From: Phycisphaerales bacterium
Lineage (GTDB): Bacteria > Planctomycetota > Phycisphaerae > Phycisphaerales > UBA1924
Assembly (NCBI GenBank): GCA_040221175.1
Contig: JAVJVK010000004.1
Span: forward strand, 248,001-312,000
Direction: 5' to 3'
DNA length: 64,000 bases
Position numbers and translations under genes: made by a program. The notes beneath the pieces were generated by a model. The model saw only the letters and a list, made by a program, of their open reading frames with translations. It did no database searches and was not told the origin of the DNA. Below are positions 2,305 through 9,310 of the stretch, in pieces; positions within the stretch are counted from its first letter, which is position 1; each line of letters starts with the position of its first letter.

Positions 2305-3705
2305 TCAGCCGCACCCCGCCTGAAACGCGTCCTGGAACGCCAGGAAGTCGAAGATCGTCAGCTCGCCGTCGCCGTCGAAGTCGGCTTGGGGGTTGCCGTC
2401 CTGGAAGAGGTTGAGGTAGGTCAGGAAGTCGTAGATGGTGAGCGAGCCGTCGAGGTCGAGGTCGGGGGGGCAGATCTCGCACGAGAGGTCGAACGCGTGG
2501 GCGGCGCCGCGCTTGTCTCCATCGATCATCGTGTACGACGCGCCGACCACGACATCGTTGCCACGCATCGCCACGGCGCCGCCGTACTCGAGCACCCACT
2601 CGGGCGTGCTGGGCGGCAGTTCGGCAACCTGCGCCCACAGCCCGCCCGCGCCGCGTGCGAACACGTAGGCCGAGCCGGTCGGCCCCGCCGCCGTGTCGCC
2701 TTGCATCGACGTCACGACGAGGCGATCACCGTCGAGGGCCATGGCCCTGCCGAAACGGTCGCGCTCGTTCGAACCTTCCGCCGTGAACTCCTGAACGAGC
2801 TCCCAGCGTCCTTCGATCAGGCGATAGGCGTAGGCCGCGCCCTGGGCTGTTTCCGGGCGATCCGAGAGCATCCCGCCCAGCACCAGCGTGTCGCCCTCGA
2901 TAGTGACCGCGGTTCCCAGCCTTGGCCCCTCCAGCACGTCGGGCGCGATGAGCTTCTGCTCGAAGGCCAGCGTGCCGTCGGGCTGGCGGCGGAAGACGTA
3001 GGCCGCGCCGCCGTTGGTCACTGTGGAACTTTCCAACTGCGCCCCGATGACCACACGCTGGTCGTCGATGGCGAGGGTGTAGCCGAAGCCTGCGTCCTCA
3101 CCGACGGCATCGATCGACTCGAGAATCTCAATCTGATTCCATCTCTCGCTATCAAAGTGATAGACGATGGCGCCGTTGCCGCCGGTTGGCCCTACTCCGC
3201 CTTGGATCACAGCGATGTCACCGTGAAGCACCGCGCTATAGCCAAAGTCAAATCGAGATGGATTGAACACCTGCTGCCGCTCGACCCATTGCTCGCCGTC
3301 GTGCTGGAAGAAGTAGGCCGCGCCGTGCCCGCCCATGCCGGTTCCATCGCCCGCCGCGGTGGCCACCATCCAGTCCTCATGCACGGCCACCGCCGCGCCG
3401 TAGGCGAACCGCGGCCCCAGGTCGGCCGGCTCGACGCGCTGGGCCAGCACCCAGCGCCCGTCGGCGTCCTTCTCGTAGGCGTACACCATGCCGTTCGAGC
3501 AGGTGGGGTCGATCGTGCAATACCGGCTGTCGTGCCAGTCGCCGATGAGCAGGTGCCTGTCGGTCATGGCCACGGCCCTGCCGAAGCTGCTCGCGCTCGC
3601 GTCGGGCGTCAGATACTGCGGCTCGCACGAGGTCTGGACGGGGGCGGCACTCGACAGCCCATAGATGCAGCAACCCGCGATCAGCCATAACGAGTTCGTG
3701 TTCAT
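2305..3705 (-). CDS. Exported FG-GAP beta-propeller protein with GC-type dockerin
   Basis: A 466-residue secreted protein. Signal peptide at residues 1-20 (MNTNSLWLIAGCCIYGLSSA). Residues 30-405 hold repeated blades of the form FGRAVAMTDRHLLIG / AYVFRR, an integrin-alpha/FG-GAP-like propeller. Residues 412-466 form the Phycisphaerae-type dockerin: Cys pair, then PPDLDLDGSLTIYDFL and ADFDGDGELTIFDFL, ending AGCG. Each half carries a D-x-D-G-D/S calcium loop. In cellulosomal systems dockerins bind cohesins; the partner here is unknown. The paralogue at 4684-5985 lies on the other side of smpB and shares this architecture. Likely cell-surface or extracellular. Confidence 0.85.
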   Translation of the reverse strand: MNTNSLWLIAGCCIYGLSSAAPVQTSCEPQYLTPDASASSFGRAVAMTDRHLLIGDWHDSRYCTIDPTCSNGMVYAYEKDADGRWVLAQRVEPADLGPRFAYGAAVAVHEDWMVATAAGDGTGMGGHGAAYFFQHDGEQWVERQQVFNPSRFDFGYSAVLHGDIAVIQGGVGPTGGNGAIVYHFDSERWNQIEILESIDAVGEDAGFGYTLAIDDQRVVIGAQLESSTVTNGGAAYVFRRQPDGTLAFEQKLIAPDVLEGPRLGTAVTIEGDTLVLGGMLSDRPETAQGAAYAYRLIEGRWELVQEFTAEGSNERDRFGRAMALDGDRLVVTSMQGDTAAGPTGSAYVFARGAGGLWAQVAELPPSTPEWVLEYGGAVAMRGNDVVVGASYTMIDGDKRGAAHAFDLSCEICPPDLDLDGSLTIYDFLTYLNLFQDGNPQADFDGDGELTIFDFLAFQDAFQAGCG

Positions 3706-3787: not shown

Positions 3788-4288
3788 ATGGCCAAGAAGC
3801 CCCGCAAGCCAAAGCCCGTCATGATCGAGAACCGCAAGGCGCGGCACGAGTATGACATCCTCGACACGCTCGAGGTCGGCATTCGCCTGACCGGCAGCGA
3901 GGTCAAGAGCGTCCGCGACGGCAAGGTCTCTCTGGGCGAGGGCTACGTGCGGGCCCAGCTCACGCCGCTGGCACTCGAGCTGCACTCGGTGAACATCGCC
4001 GAGTATCCGCCCGCCCAGGGGCACCAGCACATCCCCACCCGAGTGCGCACGTTGCTGGCCCACAAGCGCGAGATCAGCAAGCTTGCCAAGGCCAGCGACG
4101 AGAAGGGCATCACCCTCATCCCGCTGCGGCTCTACTTCCAGGGCCCCTACGCCAAGCTCGAGATCGCCCTGGCCCGGGGCCGCGGCAAGGTCGACAAGCG
4201 GCACGCCATCGCCGACCGCGAGATGAAGCGCGAGCTGGACCGCTCGATGAAGAGCCGGCTCAAGGGCGGCGCCGGGGTGGTCGGGTAG
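3788..4288 (+). CDS. smpB: SsrA-binding protein SmpB
   Basis: A 166-residue protein that binds the tRNA-like domain of tmRNA and brings it to stalled ribosomes for trans-translation. Diagnostic stretches are visible: NRKARHEYDILDTLEVGIRL, TGSEVKSVRDGKVSLGEGY, LTLIPLRLYF-like ITLIPLRLYFQG, and the basic C-terminal tail ALARGRGKVDKRHAI ... REMKREL. Length is normal. The ATG at 3788 has no Shine-Dalgarno sequence (upstream is C-rich), so initiation may be SD-independent. No tmRNA gene is seen in this window. The gene sits between two FG-GAP/dockerin paralogues with which it has no obvious functional link. Confidence 0.97.
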   Translation: MAKKPRKPKPVMIENRKARHEYDILDTLEVGIRLTGSEVKSVRDGKVSLGEGYVRAQLTPLALELHSVNIAEYPPAQGHQHIPTRVRTLLAHKREISKLAKASDEKGITLIPLRLYFQGPYAKLEIALARGRGKVDKRHAIADREMKRELDRSMKSRLKGGAGVVG

Positions 4289-4318: not shown

Positions 4319-4404
4319 CGGGGAGGCCCAGGCCCGAGAACGCCGCGACCACGACCCCGCCAGGCCCGAAGCCGGCCACGCGAAGTGCGACATTCCTTGC
4401 ACGG

Positions 4405-4572
4405 GGAGCGGTTCCGGGCGTGCACGGAGCGACGCCGAGCGTACACGGCACGGCTCCGGGCGTACACGGAGCGACTCCGGGCGTACACGGAGTGGCTCCG
4501 GGCGTACACGCAGCGACTCCGGGCGTACACGGAACGGCTCCGAGCGTACACGGAGCGGCTCCGAGCACGCTC
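4405..4572. repeat. 21-bp tandem array, 8 units
   Basis: Eight head-to-tail units begin at 4405, 4426, 4447, 4468, 4489, 4510, 4531 and 4552. Consensus is GGAGCGRCTCCGGGCGTACA plus a final C; the last unit degenerates after position 15. Each unit contains the inverted repeat GGAGC-G-RCTCC followed by GTAC. The array ends 111 bases before the start codon of an FG-GAP/dockerin gene. A second array with the same period lies upstream of another FG-GAP/dockerin gene (49808-49954). No unique spacers are present, so it is not a CRISPR. Confidence 0.85.
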
Positions 4573-4683
4573 GGAACTCTTCTTGGGGTCGCCAGGGCGG
4601 TTTCTCTATCGGACGCATGGTTTGTTCGGGGGCTGCCGAACATCGGGCTGCAACCGGGCGCGCTGGCCGGCGGAAGAATGGGC

Positions 4684-5985
4684 ATGCGAGGAATTGCCCA
4701 TTGCGTGTGCGCCCTGGCGGTGGTCGTGGGTGGTCCGGGAAGCGCGCTCGCCGACGAACCCTGCCAGCTCCAGCGGCTGCTGGCTCCCGGGCCGTACGCA
4801 TCGACATCGTTCGGTAACGCCGTCGCTCGAAGTGGGGAGTACTGGTTCGTCGCCGACTACCGCGCAGAGGTCCTCTGCACCGGCTTTGGGTGCGGGGCCG
4901 GGGCGGTCTACGTGTACCAGATGATCGACGGGCAACTCGAGCATGTCCAAACACTCACGTCCCCATTCCCGCAGTCGCCGGACAACTACGGCATTTCGAT
5001 CGATGCGGACGATGTTCATCTGGTTGTTGGGGCACCGTTCAGCGGACTTCCAGGGCGCAGCGACCGACCTGGTGCCGTGTTCGTATACCGTCTTTCAGAT
5101 GGGTCATGGGCGGAGAGCGCACGAATAGAGCCACCCGCGGAAGCCCTCGAATTCGGCACGGAGGTGGCCGTTGATAATGGCCAATTGCTCGTATCAGAAA
5201 ACTACAACGACCGCCTAGGCCGTCTACCCCGCGTGCTGGCTTATGAAGCGCGGGGTTCGAATTGGGAACTACGCGACATTGTTTCCCGTCCCGACGACGT
5301 TTCAGAGAACTCGTGGTTTGGGATTGCACTCTCGCTCAGCAACGAACGGCTGGTCGTCGGAGCTCCTTTCGACAGGGCCGAGCGAACCAATGGCGGTTCC
5401 GTGCACGTGTACAGGCGTTCGGTCGACGGCACATACGAGTTGGAGCAGAGCCTTCGCGTGGACGCCGCCGAGCGGATCGGCCGCAGCATTTCAATCAGCG
5501 GCTCGCGTCTGCTGGCCGGGGCGCCGCTCGCCACTCGCGATTTCGAGTTCCAGGGCGTGGTTTACGAGTACGAGTTCGATGGCTCGCAATGGGTGCAGTC
5601 AGCGGAGATCCGCAGCAACGAGCCCGATCAGCAGGATACGTTTGGTACGACAGTCACGCTCGAAGGCAACCAACTCTTTGTCACGGCGGAGGGCGACAGC
5701 GTGGGCTCGGTCCAGGCGTTCGGGCGATCAGCCGATGGCGACTGGCAGCAGCAATCCCGCATCGTGCCCGACACCACGACGCTCGCTTTGCGCTTCGGGT
5801 GGAGCATGGCGACCGATGGCCGATTCCTGCTCGTGGGCGCCCCCGAAGAGAGCGACGTCTTCTCCAGCGACGACTACGGCGCCGCCTACTTCTTCGACCT
5901 CGCCTGCACCGACTGCCAGCCCGACCTCGACCTCGATGGCTCTCTCACCATCTACGACTTCCTTACCTTCCTGAACCTCTTTTAA
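4684..5985 (+). CDS. Exported FG-GAP beta-propeller protein, dockerin cut by a nonsense codon
   Basis: A 433-residue secreted protein, paralogous to the product of 2305-3705. The ATG at 4684 is preferred to 4678 because GGAAG (4672-4676) is then 7 bases away. Signal peptide is MRGIAHCVCALAVVVGGPGS up to ALADEP. Propeller blades repeat the pattern FGNAVARSGEYWFVAD / GAVYVYQ. The first dockerin half (CQPDLDLDGSLTIYDFL) is intact, but after FLNLF the codon TAA (5983-5985) replaces the CAG seen in the paralogue. The same frame then continues cleanly for 30 sense codons encoding the second dockerin half, ending at TGA 6076-6078. Either a recent nonsense mutation or stop-codon readthrough. Confidence 0.82.
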   Translation: MRGIAHCVCALAVVVGGPGSALADEPCQLQRLLAPGPYASTSFGNAVARSGEYWFVADYRAEVLCTGFGCGAGAVYVYQMIDGQLEHVQTLTSPFPQSPDNYGISIDADDVHLVVGAPFSGLPGRSDRPGAVFVYRLSDGSWAESARIEPPAEALEFGTEVAVDNGQLLVSENYNDRLGRLPRVLAYEARGSNWELRDIVSRPDDVSENSWFGIALSLSNERLVVGAPFDRAERTNGGSVHVYRRSVDGTYELEQSLRVDAAERIGRSISISGSRLLAGAPLATRDFEFQGVVYEYEFDGSQWVQSAEIRSNEPDQQDTFGTTVTLEGNQLFVTAEGDSVGSVQAFGRSADGDWQQQSRIVPDTTTLALRFGWSMATDGRFLLVGAPEESDVFSSDDYGAAYFFDLACTDCQPDLDLDGSLTIYDFLTFLNLF

Positions 5986-6078
5986 GACGGCGACGCGCTT
6001 GCCGACTTCGACGGCGACGGCGAGCTGACGCTCTTCGACTTCCTGGCGTACCAGACAGCGTTCGACGCAGGGTGTTGA
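5986..6078 (+). pseudogene. Stranded second half of the GC-type dockerin
   Basis: In frame with the preceding gene and directly after its TAA. It encodes DGDALADFDGDGELTLFDFL, then AYQTAFDAGC and TGA. This is the second calcium-loop half plus the conserved terminal Cys. A single C-to-T change (CAA to TAA) explains the split; there is no start codon or ribosome binding site for separate translation. Confidence 0.8.
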
Positions 6079-6081
6079 AGA

Positions 6082-6152
6082 GAGGCACCGAGGCACTGAG
6101 GCACAAAGGAATCAGAGATCCGCCCCTTCGTGCCTGCGTGCCTCGGTGCCTT
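6082..6152. repeat. GAGGCAC-type long inverted repeat
   Basis: Left arm 6082-6109 and right arm 6125-6152 are 28 bases each and pair at 24 of 28 positions, with a 15-base loop. Each arm is itself built from three GAGGCAC units at 8-bp steps. It sits between the convergent FG-GAP gene and the receiver-HTH gene and could end transcription from both sides. A left-arm-like copy without partner lies at 4290-4318. Confidence 0.7.
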
Positions 6153-6163
6153 CGTGCCTTCCC

Positions 6164-6793
6164 CTAAAACTCCGCCCCCGCCAGCCACTCGCTCGGCAGC
6201 GCGCCCAGCGCCTGGGCGATCATCAGCAGGCTCTCCAGGCTCGGCAGGTGCGCGCCGCGCTCGATGCTGCTGAGCTGGCTGACGCTGACGCCCGACGCCT
6301 CGCTCAGGTCCTTAAGCGTCCAGTCTTTCGCCGAGCGCGCGAGGCGTATCTGCCGGCCGAGCGCGGCGCGGAGCTTGTCCTGGGGCCGCACGCCCAGCGC
6401 GTACTCGCTGGCCGCCTGGGCGAGCACGCGGGTCAGCTCGGCGGGCTCGAAGGGCTTGGTGACGTAGTCGAAGACCTGCTTCTTGAAGGTCTGCCGCATC
6501 GAGTCCATGGTCGGGTGGCCGGTGATGACGATGACGCAGAGCTTCTCCCAGCGCTCCCGCAGCTCGGCCAGCACGTCCTCGCCGCGGTCCTTGCCCATGT
6601 TGATGTCCAGGAGCACGACCTCGGGGAGCCGGGCCTCGCACGCGTCGTAGAGCGCCGCGGGCGTGGCGACCGTGCGCACCTCGTGGCCCGCGTCGGCCAG
6701 CAGGCCCTCGAGGTACTCGCGAAAGTCCGCGTCGTCGTCGAGCGCGACGATGCTGAGGCTGGGAGCTGGGTCGTTCGTGTCGGGGCCGGCCAT
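6164..6793 (-). CDS. Response regulator: receiver domain fused to XRE-type HTH
   Basis: A 209-residue protein. Residues 13-130 are a receiver: acidic cluster DDD at 19-21, phospho-acceptor Asp63 in VVLLDINMG, Thr91 in VIVITGHPT, and Lys113 in DYVTKPFEP. Residues 140-205 are a Cro/C1-type helix-turn-helix (LGRQIRLARSAKDWTLKDLS, then SGVSVSQLSSIERGAHLPS). Receivers are normally joined to OmpR, LuxR or Fis DNA-binding domains; the XRE fusion is uncommon. No histidine kinase is encoded nearby, so it is an orphan regulator. It starts 18 bases downstream of the end of the hydrolase gene and may be co-transcribed with it. Confidence 0.9.
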   Translation of the reverse strand: MAGPDTNDPAPSLSIVALDDDADFREYLEGLLADAGHEVRTVATPAALYDACEARLPEVVLLDINMGKDRGEDVLAELRERWEKLCVIVITGHPTMDSMRQTFKKQVFDYVTKPFEPAELTRVLAQAASEYALGVRPQDKLRAALGRQIRLARSAKDWTLKDLSEASGVSVSQLSSIERGAHLPSLESLLMIAQALGALPSEWLAGAEF

Positions 6794-6810: not shown

Positions 6811-9267
6811 TCAGCGCCAGGCGCTCTGGGCCGGGTCGACCGACCAGTCGGGCCCGAAGAAGCCGGCGCCGATCACCCCCTCAAGGCCCTTCTCCAGCAC
6901 GTCGGGGGTGAGGAGCAGCCAGTCCGGATAGCCCACGCCCGAGATGAAGTACCGCGGCTCGTCGGCCAGGCGCCGGCCGATCGCGCCCGTGCCCGCGACC
7001 ACGCCCACCAGTGCCTCGTCGGTCCCGGCCCGCGGGTAGGCGAAGAACGCGGCCACGTCGTCGCGCTCGATGGTGCGATCCCCCACCGTCGCCGAGCCCC
7101 GGCCGATGCGTACGGGCCCGTCGCCGAGCAGTTGGTCCCACAGCCGGTGCGAGTCGGCGCAGCCGTAGAGGATGACGTTGCGATTCGCGTTGACCTCGGC
7201 ATCGGGATCGAAGGCCGTGTCGGGCACGACGTCGACCGCGCCGTTGGCCCGGTACTGCCAGGTGTCGGCGTCGTAGCGAGCCTTGGCGAGCGCCCAGGCG
7301 TTCTCTTCCTCGGTGCCGCCGGTGGCGTAGACGAAGGCCATGTTGTTGTCGAAGGCGTGCTTGAAAGGGCCGGCGCGGTGGGCGCCCTTGAGGGCGGGGT
7401 CGTGGAAGGGCGCGATCGCCTTCCATGGGTCGTCGAGCGTCGCACGCTGGAAGTCGTACAGGATGCCGCCGCCCATGCGGTGCACCTCCTGGCCATCGAT
7501 CATCACGGTGTCGCGGAAGTGCTCGCCATCGATCACATCGTGATCCAGCGAGAAGGCCAGCACGTTGCTCGTGGCGATGTCCATGGGCGCCTCGGCCGTC
7601 GGGCGCACCACCGTGAGCGTCGCGGGCTCCATGGACCGCGCCTGCCGCTGGATCGTGAACAGCCTCGCCTCGCTGCTGATGGCCGGGTTGATGGTGGTGA
7701 AGCGCTCCCGCGCCGGGGTCATGTCGATGGCGCGATCCTCGAAGAACCGCATCATGGGCGGCCAGTCGACGCACTGGTTGCCCCACCAGTGCCCGGCCCC
7801 GGGCCGCTCGTAGTACGCAAAGTCCGGGTGGAACTTTGCGAGCCGCTCGCGCATGAAGCGTGCCTGGCTCACCGGCACGTTGTTGTCCGCGTCGCCGTGG
7901 AGGACGTAGACGCCCAGGTCCTGGTAATTCTCTTCGAGCAGCAGCGTGCGGCTGGCATTGTTGGCGGTATTGAGGATCCGGCCGATGGGGTCGCCCTCGT
8001 CGAACTCGCCCGCGCCCCCATAGCTCCAGAAGTCCCGCCAGCCCGCGCTGGGGCCGATGGCGGCGAACTTCGGGGCAAAGTGGGCCCCCACCTGCCACGT
8101 GCCGTGGCCGCCCATGGAGTGGCCGGTGAGGTACGTCCGCTCGGGGTTCTGGTGCCCGTACGCCTCGCGGGCGTGGGCGAGCACCTCGATGGCGTCGAGC
8201 CGGCCCCAGTCCTCCCAGTCGAAGCCGAAGGGCCGGCGGTTGGTGGGCGCGACGATGATCGTGCCATCCTTGTGGCCGTAGGCATTGGCCTGGTTTCTCG
8301 CCTCGACGCTGGCGCCGTGCAGGGTCAGGATGAACAACTCGGGCCTGGAGCCCTCGACCGGCGGCGTGACGGCGTAGTACTGCACGCTGCCGTCGATGTC
8401 GCTGATGAAGGTTTGAGAGTGCTTTTCGTGGGGCTGGCGAACGCCTAGCGATATCGGCATCTGGACCCGTGTCATCCCCGACAGGGCCTCCAGATTCGTA
8501 GTGATCTCGCCGGTCTCCGAGGTCGCGGGGAGAACCATGTGTACTGGCAGCTTGCGGACGCCAAGAGGTGCGATTCCTCCGAGCCCGGGCGCGACCTGGG
8601 TGACAAAGCGTCCGCCATCCCACACGCCCTGCACGCCAATCAGTTGCTCGGCCGTGGCGTTGACCAGAGGTGCAGCGGCGATGTATTCGCCATCATTGAC
8701 AACGTCGGGCTTGGTCACGTCGCTGTCGAGCCAGAACAGCTCGGCTTCGGGCTCGCGCAGCTCGATCCGCATCCGCCCGCGTCCACCCTTGAACAGCAGC
8801 TCGTTGTCACCCTCGCGCAGCTCGATGGGCAGGGCCGTGATGCCCAGGTTGTAGACGTCGCCTCCGCGGCGCTGGCCGTTGACCACCACGTGCCGGTGGC
8901 CGCGGGCGTGGAGCATCGCGATGCGGCGCTGCGGCGAACGAATGACCACGTGGGCGTAGCCCCCGGCGAGCGCGCGGTCGTTGAACACGCCCTCGTCGTT
9001 GGCGCTCAGGGGCTTCCAGCTCGCCGACCGTCCGTCGGGGGTCGTGACCTCGTCGCCCTCGGCGGGCGGCTTCCAATCGCCGCGGACCAGGCTCAGCTCG
9101 ACCGGGTCGCTCACGATCAGGCTGCGCCCGCCGCGCGAGAGGCGGTCCAGGGCGAGCACGTCCTTGACCACCAGCGTGTCCGAATCGGCCGGCCACGGAA
9201 CGACGGCCTGGGCCAGCGCCTGGAGGCACGAGATGGATACGGCAAGGACGGCGGCAATGGTTCGCAT
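6811..9267 (-). CDS. Secreted alpha/beta hydrolase (prolyl oligopeptidase / polyhydroxybutyrate depolymerase-like)
   Basis: An 818-residue exported serine hydrolase. Start at 9267 is preferred over 9273 because GGAG is then 6 bases upstream. Signal peptide MRTIAAVLAVSISCLQALAQ. Residues 30-300 form beta-rich N-terminal domains. The catalytic domain contains ELFILTLHGASVE, the nucleophile motif YLTGHSMGGHGTW (Ser about residue 384), a probable Asp in YVLHGDADNNVP, and a probable His in RPGAGHWWGNQ. The order and spacing match prolyl oligopeptidase-family esterases. The remaining C-terminal 300 residues have no obvious catalytic motif. The substrate is not predictable: peptide, ester or polysaccharide-linked ester are all possible. 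Confidence 0.85.
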   Translation of the reverse strand: MRTIAAVLAVSISCLQALAQAVVPWPADSDTLVVKDVLALDRLSRGGRSLIVSDPVELSLVRGDWKPPAEGDEVTTPDGRSASWKPLSANDEGVFNDRALAGGYAHVVIRSPQRRIAMLHARGHRHVVVNGQRRGGDVYNLGITALPIELREGDNELLFKGGRGRMRIELREPEAELFWLDSDVTKPDVVNDGEYIAAAPLVNATAEQLIGVQGVWDGGRFVTQVAPGLGGIAPLGVRKLPVHMVLPATSETGEITTNLEALSGMTRVQMPISLGVRQPHEKHSQTFISDIDGSVQYYAVTPPVEGSRPELFILTLHGASVEARNQANAYGHKDGTIIVAPTNRRPFGFDWEDWGRLDAIEVLAHAREAYGHQNPERTYLTGHSMGGHGTWQVGAHFAPKFAAIGPSAGWRDFWSYGGAGEFDEGDPIGRILNTANNASRTLLLEENYQDLGVYVLHGDADNNVPVSQARFMRERLAKFHPDFAYYERPGAGHWWGNQCVDWPPMMRFFEDRAIDMTPARERFTTINPAISSEARLFTIQRQARSMEPATLTVVRPTAEAPMDIATSNVLAFSLDHDVIDGEHFRDTVMIDGQEVHRMGGGILYDFQRATLDDPWKAIAPFHDPALKGAHRAGPFKHAFDNNMAFVYATGGTEEENAWALAKARYDADTWQYRANGAVDVVPDTAFDPDAEVNANRNVILYGCADSHRLWDQLLGDGPVRIGRGSATVGDRTIERDDVAAFFAYPRAGTDEALVGVVAGTGAIGRRLADEPRYFISGVGYPDWLLLTPDVLEKGLEGVIGAGFFGPDWSVDPAQSAWR

Positions 9268-9310
9268 GGGCATCTCCGTGCCCGAGCGTATGGCCCCGGC
9301 CCCGCACCGG

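Follow-up and report, generated by a model that had tools for sequence, protein, structure and literature searches.

The window analysed here, a stretch of 64,000 nucleotides that is part of contig C4 in a genome of 3.44 Mb and 20 contigs, contains an FG-GAP gene that stops at a TAA in the middle of a dockerin domain and is followed by the rest of that domain in the same frame. This raises the question whether the stop is a young mutation, an error in the sequence or a signal that the cell reads through. The truncated gene (4684-5985, forward strand) has a signal-peptide-like start, FG-GAP repeats (FG-GAP_2, 8.7e-39, in five stretches) and the first half of a GC-type dockerin; the start at ATG 4684 (ATG 4678 is possible too) and the signal peptide were inferred by eye. 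The TAA at 5983-5985 is in frame with this gene and reads TTT TAA GAC at 5980-5988, within the wider context CTG AAC CTC TTT TAA GAC GGC GAC. The proximal half of the dockerin comprises 23 codons beginning at a Cys (5914-5982, forward strand). On the same strand the distal half keeps the frame for 30 codons (5986-6075) up to GGG TGT, after which a TGA at 6076-6078 closes the uninterrupted frame. The Gly-Cys end characteristic of GC-type dockerins is encoded at 6070-6075, downstream of the TAA, and would consequently be absent from the product. No frameshift was seen in the gene. A codon-usage scan of the whole window found seven stops with coding-like codons on both sides; the TAA at 5983 had the top score on both, and the other six appeared by eye to lie in antisense frames. 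An in-frame TAA with such a coding continuation is not chance.

The two halves were scored separately against the dockerin_GC model NF041540, which has 67 positions and a whole-protein cut-off of 29. The 21 amino acids upstream of the TAA (5920-5982) matched model positions 15-30 with 16.5 bits and the 30 amino acids downstream matched positions 33-67 with 23.1 bits (E 7e-5). Each of these scores remains below the cut-off because it belongs to half a domain only, and both refer to the halves and not to the read-through domain. The intact FG-GAP/dockerin paralogue at 2305-3705 on the reverse strand reaches 50.7 bits. The family is large: at least 150 GC-type dockerins are present in this genome, since 150 of 224 candidates were scored and all were above the cut-off (dockerin counts are lower bounds, with 150 scored of 224, 238, 233 and 234 candidates). 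The Pfam model Dockerin_1 gave 20 matches in the genome at E 0.001 or better. A literature search on the term "GC-type dockerin" returned no paper, and a loss of anchoring by the truncation is putative, taken from the family name ("anchored") alone.

At the aligned place the paralogue at 2305-3705 reads TTC CAG GAC. The first-pass annotation had stated that the TAA stands within the dockerin exactly where this paralogue has CAG, and that 30 intact codons continue up to the terminal Cys; both statements are correct. For a broader comparison 83 distinct dockerins were used, 59 from the same genome and 24 from other genomes with the TAA gene included, and none of the other 82 has a stop at this site. 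Among the first 68 dockerins read, GAC, CAG and GAT predominate at this site, with CAA, GAA, GAG or AAA occurring occasionally. The codons CAA, GAA and AAA of related dockerins are each one base away from TAA, and CAG is two bases away, so that an intermediate has to be assumed for CAG because the change to TAA needs two steps. The ancestral codon may possibly have been CAG, but CAA, GAA and AAA are possible as well. A search of the genome with the read-through domain gave at least 158 matches, and among the matches listed the TAA gene is the only one with an internal stop. Two related genomes, G004 and G005, gave at least 152 matches apiece; among the matches listed none has an internal stop, and the shortest open frames are 216 aa (G004) and 228 aa (G005).

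The genome G005 and the window share the same gene order, consisting of an SmpB-like, an FG-GAP/dockerin, a response-regulator-like and an esterase-like gene. The first of these (3788-4288, forward strand), which we take to be SmpB-like, is 98% identical to G005 C2:402-899. The response-regulator-like gene (6164-6793, reverse strand) and the esterase-like gene (6811-9273, reverse strand), both named by eye, are 90% and 71% identical to their counterparts in G005 (L126), and the sequence flanking the FG-GAP/dockerin gene on its 3' side aligns with 88% identity over 84 bases. In G005 the FG-GAP/dockerin gene of this position is uninterrupted and carries TTC CAG GAC at the site. In the FG-GAP part its identity to the window gene is only 31%; it matches the other dockerin gene of the window better (36.5%), and the window gene itself has a better match (51%) in a non-syntenic gene of G001. 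For these reasons we regard the G005 gene as a positional counterpart, which is perhaps not truly orthologous along its full extent, and this doubt weakens the dN/dS comparison given below. A scan of contigs for relatives of the gene yielded three distant loci.

Some further features of this region were observed. The FG-GAP dockerin genes at 2305-3705 and 4684-6078 share 31-41% identity with the genes at G005 L131 and L126, and the same-place neighbours share 71-98%. This pattern suggests a fast change or an exchange of the FG-GAP part with retention of the dockerin end. Between the SmpB-like gene and the truncated gene, at 4385-4575, the window has a tandem-repeat-like stretch with units near ggctccgggcgtacacgga (by eye), and G005 has a different repeated unit at this place (by eye). 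On the 3' side of the gene, at 6080-6160, an inverted repeat with gaggcac-like units matches its own reverse strand with 77% over 70 bases. It also matches G005 and a paralogue on contig C13, and is perhaps a terminator or a dispersed repeat.

Decay or relaxed constraint after the TAA, as in a pseudogene, was looked for by dN/dS and by profile score, and neither was found. Against a profile of 67 intact distal halves the distal half of the TAA gene scored 64.4 bits, with a median of 67.1 and 15 of the 67 scoring lower. Compared with G005 its 30 codons contain five synonymous and four non-synonymous changes, with three differing residues, which corresponds to a dN/dS of 0.20; the proximal half gave 0.21, and all dN/dS estimates in this study are based on 30 to 59 codons. 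So few non-synonymous changes in the distal half would be expected under neutrality with P = 0.03. The distal half has accordingly evolved under constraint during most of the period after its split from the G005 sequence, which means that the mutation is either young by this measure or has left the half in translation up to now. Absence of decay alone is equally compatible with translation of the distal half, and a young pseudogene would not yet show decay. Closer dating of the mutation is impossible because the distal halves of dockerins are alike and the counterpart is maybe no strict orthologue. Independent translation of the distal half was rejected, as no ATG, GTG or TTG is located inside it. 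A recombination junction at the stop was likewise rejected: the ten dockerins that match the distal half best are 88-91% identical to it, with no particular closeness to G005, so that no mosaic can be claimed.

The first-pass annotation had considered a programmed readthrough that produces anchored and free forms of the same protein. Such a programmed or leaky readthrough with a long and a short product would agree with the intact continuation and its low dN/dS, and Belinky et al. 2021 (PMC7918605) argue that many bacterial genes with in-frame stops and low dN/dS are not pseudogenes. However, the stop is not conserved, as it is absent from the G005 counterpart and from the 82 other dockerins, and a stop shared between lineages would argue for function. 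Furthermore, TAA is an ordinary terminator in this genome: dockerin genes end with TGA (20 of 44), TAG (15 of 44) or TAA (8 of 44), with one gene without a stop in view, and in view of termination at all three codons a codon reassignment was rejected. No suppressor tRNA was found, since all 45 of the 45 tRNA genes detected have ordinary anticodons in a search that did not extend to selenocysteine tRNA, and the 90 bases after the TAA show no stimulating RNA structure (z = -0.01; 98 of 200 shuffles fold at least as well). The different stops in other interrupted genes described below also speak against it. Apart from the intact continuation nothing positive speaks for programmed readthrough, and we consider a readthrough of either kind very improbable.

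Three further dockerin genes of the same genome contain lone in-frame stops, which differ in type and place. A gene on contig C7 has a TAG in its last FG-GAP repeat (L072, C7:266109-266111), a gene on C1 has a TGA just before the dockerin (L073, C1:226142-226144) and a gene on C15 has a TAG about 300 codons before the dockerin (L235, C15:142494-142496). Five distant paralogues aligned with the C7 gene gave no information on its ancestral codon. The C1 gene has orthologues of 80-85% identity in G001, G002 and G003, all with Arg (CGA, CGG, CGC) where the TGA stands; a 55% homologue in G001 was outside the site alignment, no match was found in G004 and G038, and G037 has only 42% homologues. In the 59 codons after the stop dN/dS was 0.14 (G001), 0.06 (G003) and 0.17 (G002), without any increase over the codons that precede it (0.18, 0.10 and 0.20, respectively). 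Judged from these alignments, the C1 gene represents the same process as the TAA gene with better orthologues, namely a lineage-specific change after which nothing has decayed yet. The four stops TAA, TAG, TGA and TAG at unrelated positions do not suggest a programmed device. That all four are leaky or are turned on and off within the population, and would thereby release free forms of proteins otherwise held by their dockerins, seems hardly credible to us.

The same genes bear on the possibility that the TAA reflects an error in sequencing or in the consensus, or the minority allele of a mixed population. Their presence in one genome is in favour of it, as is the single base that separates CAA from TAA. 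Counting only stops in or near the dockerin among the matches listed, 3 of 158 matches are interrupted in this genome and 0 of 304 in G004 and G005 together (P = 0.04, approximate); interrupted genes may be slightly more frequent here than in the related genomes, whether for biological reasons or because of the quality of the assembly. On the other hand, 37 ABC-transporter domains of the same genome contain no stop, although these genes are less dispensable and an imperfect control, the codon scan of the window produced a single clear case, and the TAA gene lacks a frameshift. Weighing these points, we regard an error or a minority allele as unlikely.

A truncation kept by selection, with only a free form made that is no longer held by the dockerin, was also considered. 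It would be in line with the intact FG-GAP part before the TAA and with the stop directly preceding the dockerin in the C1 gene, but the stops on C7 and C15 cut into the protein body, and we think this improbable. The idea that the stops are aimed at the dockerin was rejected with the C15 gene, whose TAG is located far upstream of this domain, after a scan of another 80 dockerin genes at their 5' ends (in rank order from the matches to the read-through domain, about half of that list, with two genes at contig ends dropped). A script assigned a signal-peptide-like start to 70 of the 80 genes, and 12 rows were flagged. One of these, the C15 gene, is clearly interrupted, and the signal peptide assigned to it was spurious; the remaining 11, of which 10 lack a signal-peptide-like start, were assessed by eye.

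Taken together, the locus is probably best explained by a recent lineage-specific nonsense mutation that truncates one of at least 150 dockerin proteins and makes the gene an incipient pseudogene. A point mutation would have converted a sense codon, which is CAG, CAA, GAA or AAA in related genes, to TAA halfway through the C-terminal dockerin of a secreted FG-GAP protein. Translation would end there, and the protein, deprived of its second calcium-loop repeat and its Gly-Cys end, would be unstable, missing altogether or released from the hold of its dockerin. Since the genome has at least 150 dockerin genes, such a pseudogene would be tolerated. Of the three options offered by the first-pass annotation (recent mutation, sequencing error, programmed readthrough), a recent mutation is thus supported, and the comparison with relatives that it had named as a check gave a sense codon in the G005 counterpart (CAG) and no stop in 82 dockerins. 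In addition, the distal half is ordinary, TAA serves as a normal terminator and the C1 gene offers a parallel. As far as could be seen, the mutation is confined to this lineage. It is not proven to be real or fixed, as one genome is involved and the evidence is assembly sequence. By itself the finding has little weight, being one more young nonsense allele, and an intact frame after a stop is the look of any recent mutation. Readthrough, if shown, would mean that a stop codon controls whether the attachment domain of a secreted protein is retained, an unusual arrangement.

The case resembles the lone in-frame stops described by Belinky et al. 2021 (PMC7918605). That work reports many in-frame stops in bacterial genes with dN/dS < 1 and considers many of the readthrough events short-lived; the single stop, the lack of a frameshift and the low dN/dS are the same here. 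In contrast to those stops, no stop common to lineages was found here and the case is known from sequence alone. With cellulosomal dockerin/cohesin systems, including the "planctosome" proposed as a dockerin/cohesin system of freshwater Planctomycetes in PMC6461901, the locus shares dockerin-like C-terminal modules, whereas a search of this genome with the Pfam cohesin model found nothing up to E = 1. A further likeness is to the GC-type dockerin family NF041540 itself: two calcium-loop-like repeats and a terminal Gly-Cys are likewise encoded here, but the stop interrupts the frame between the repeats.
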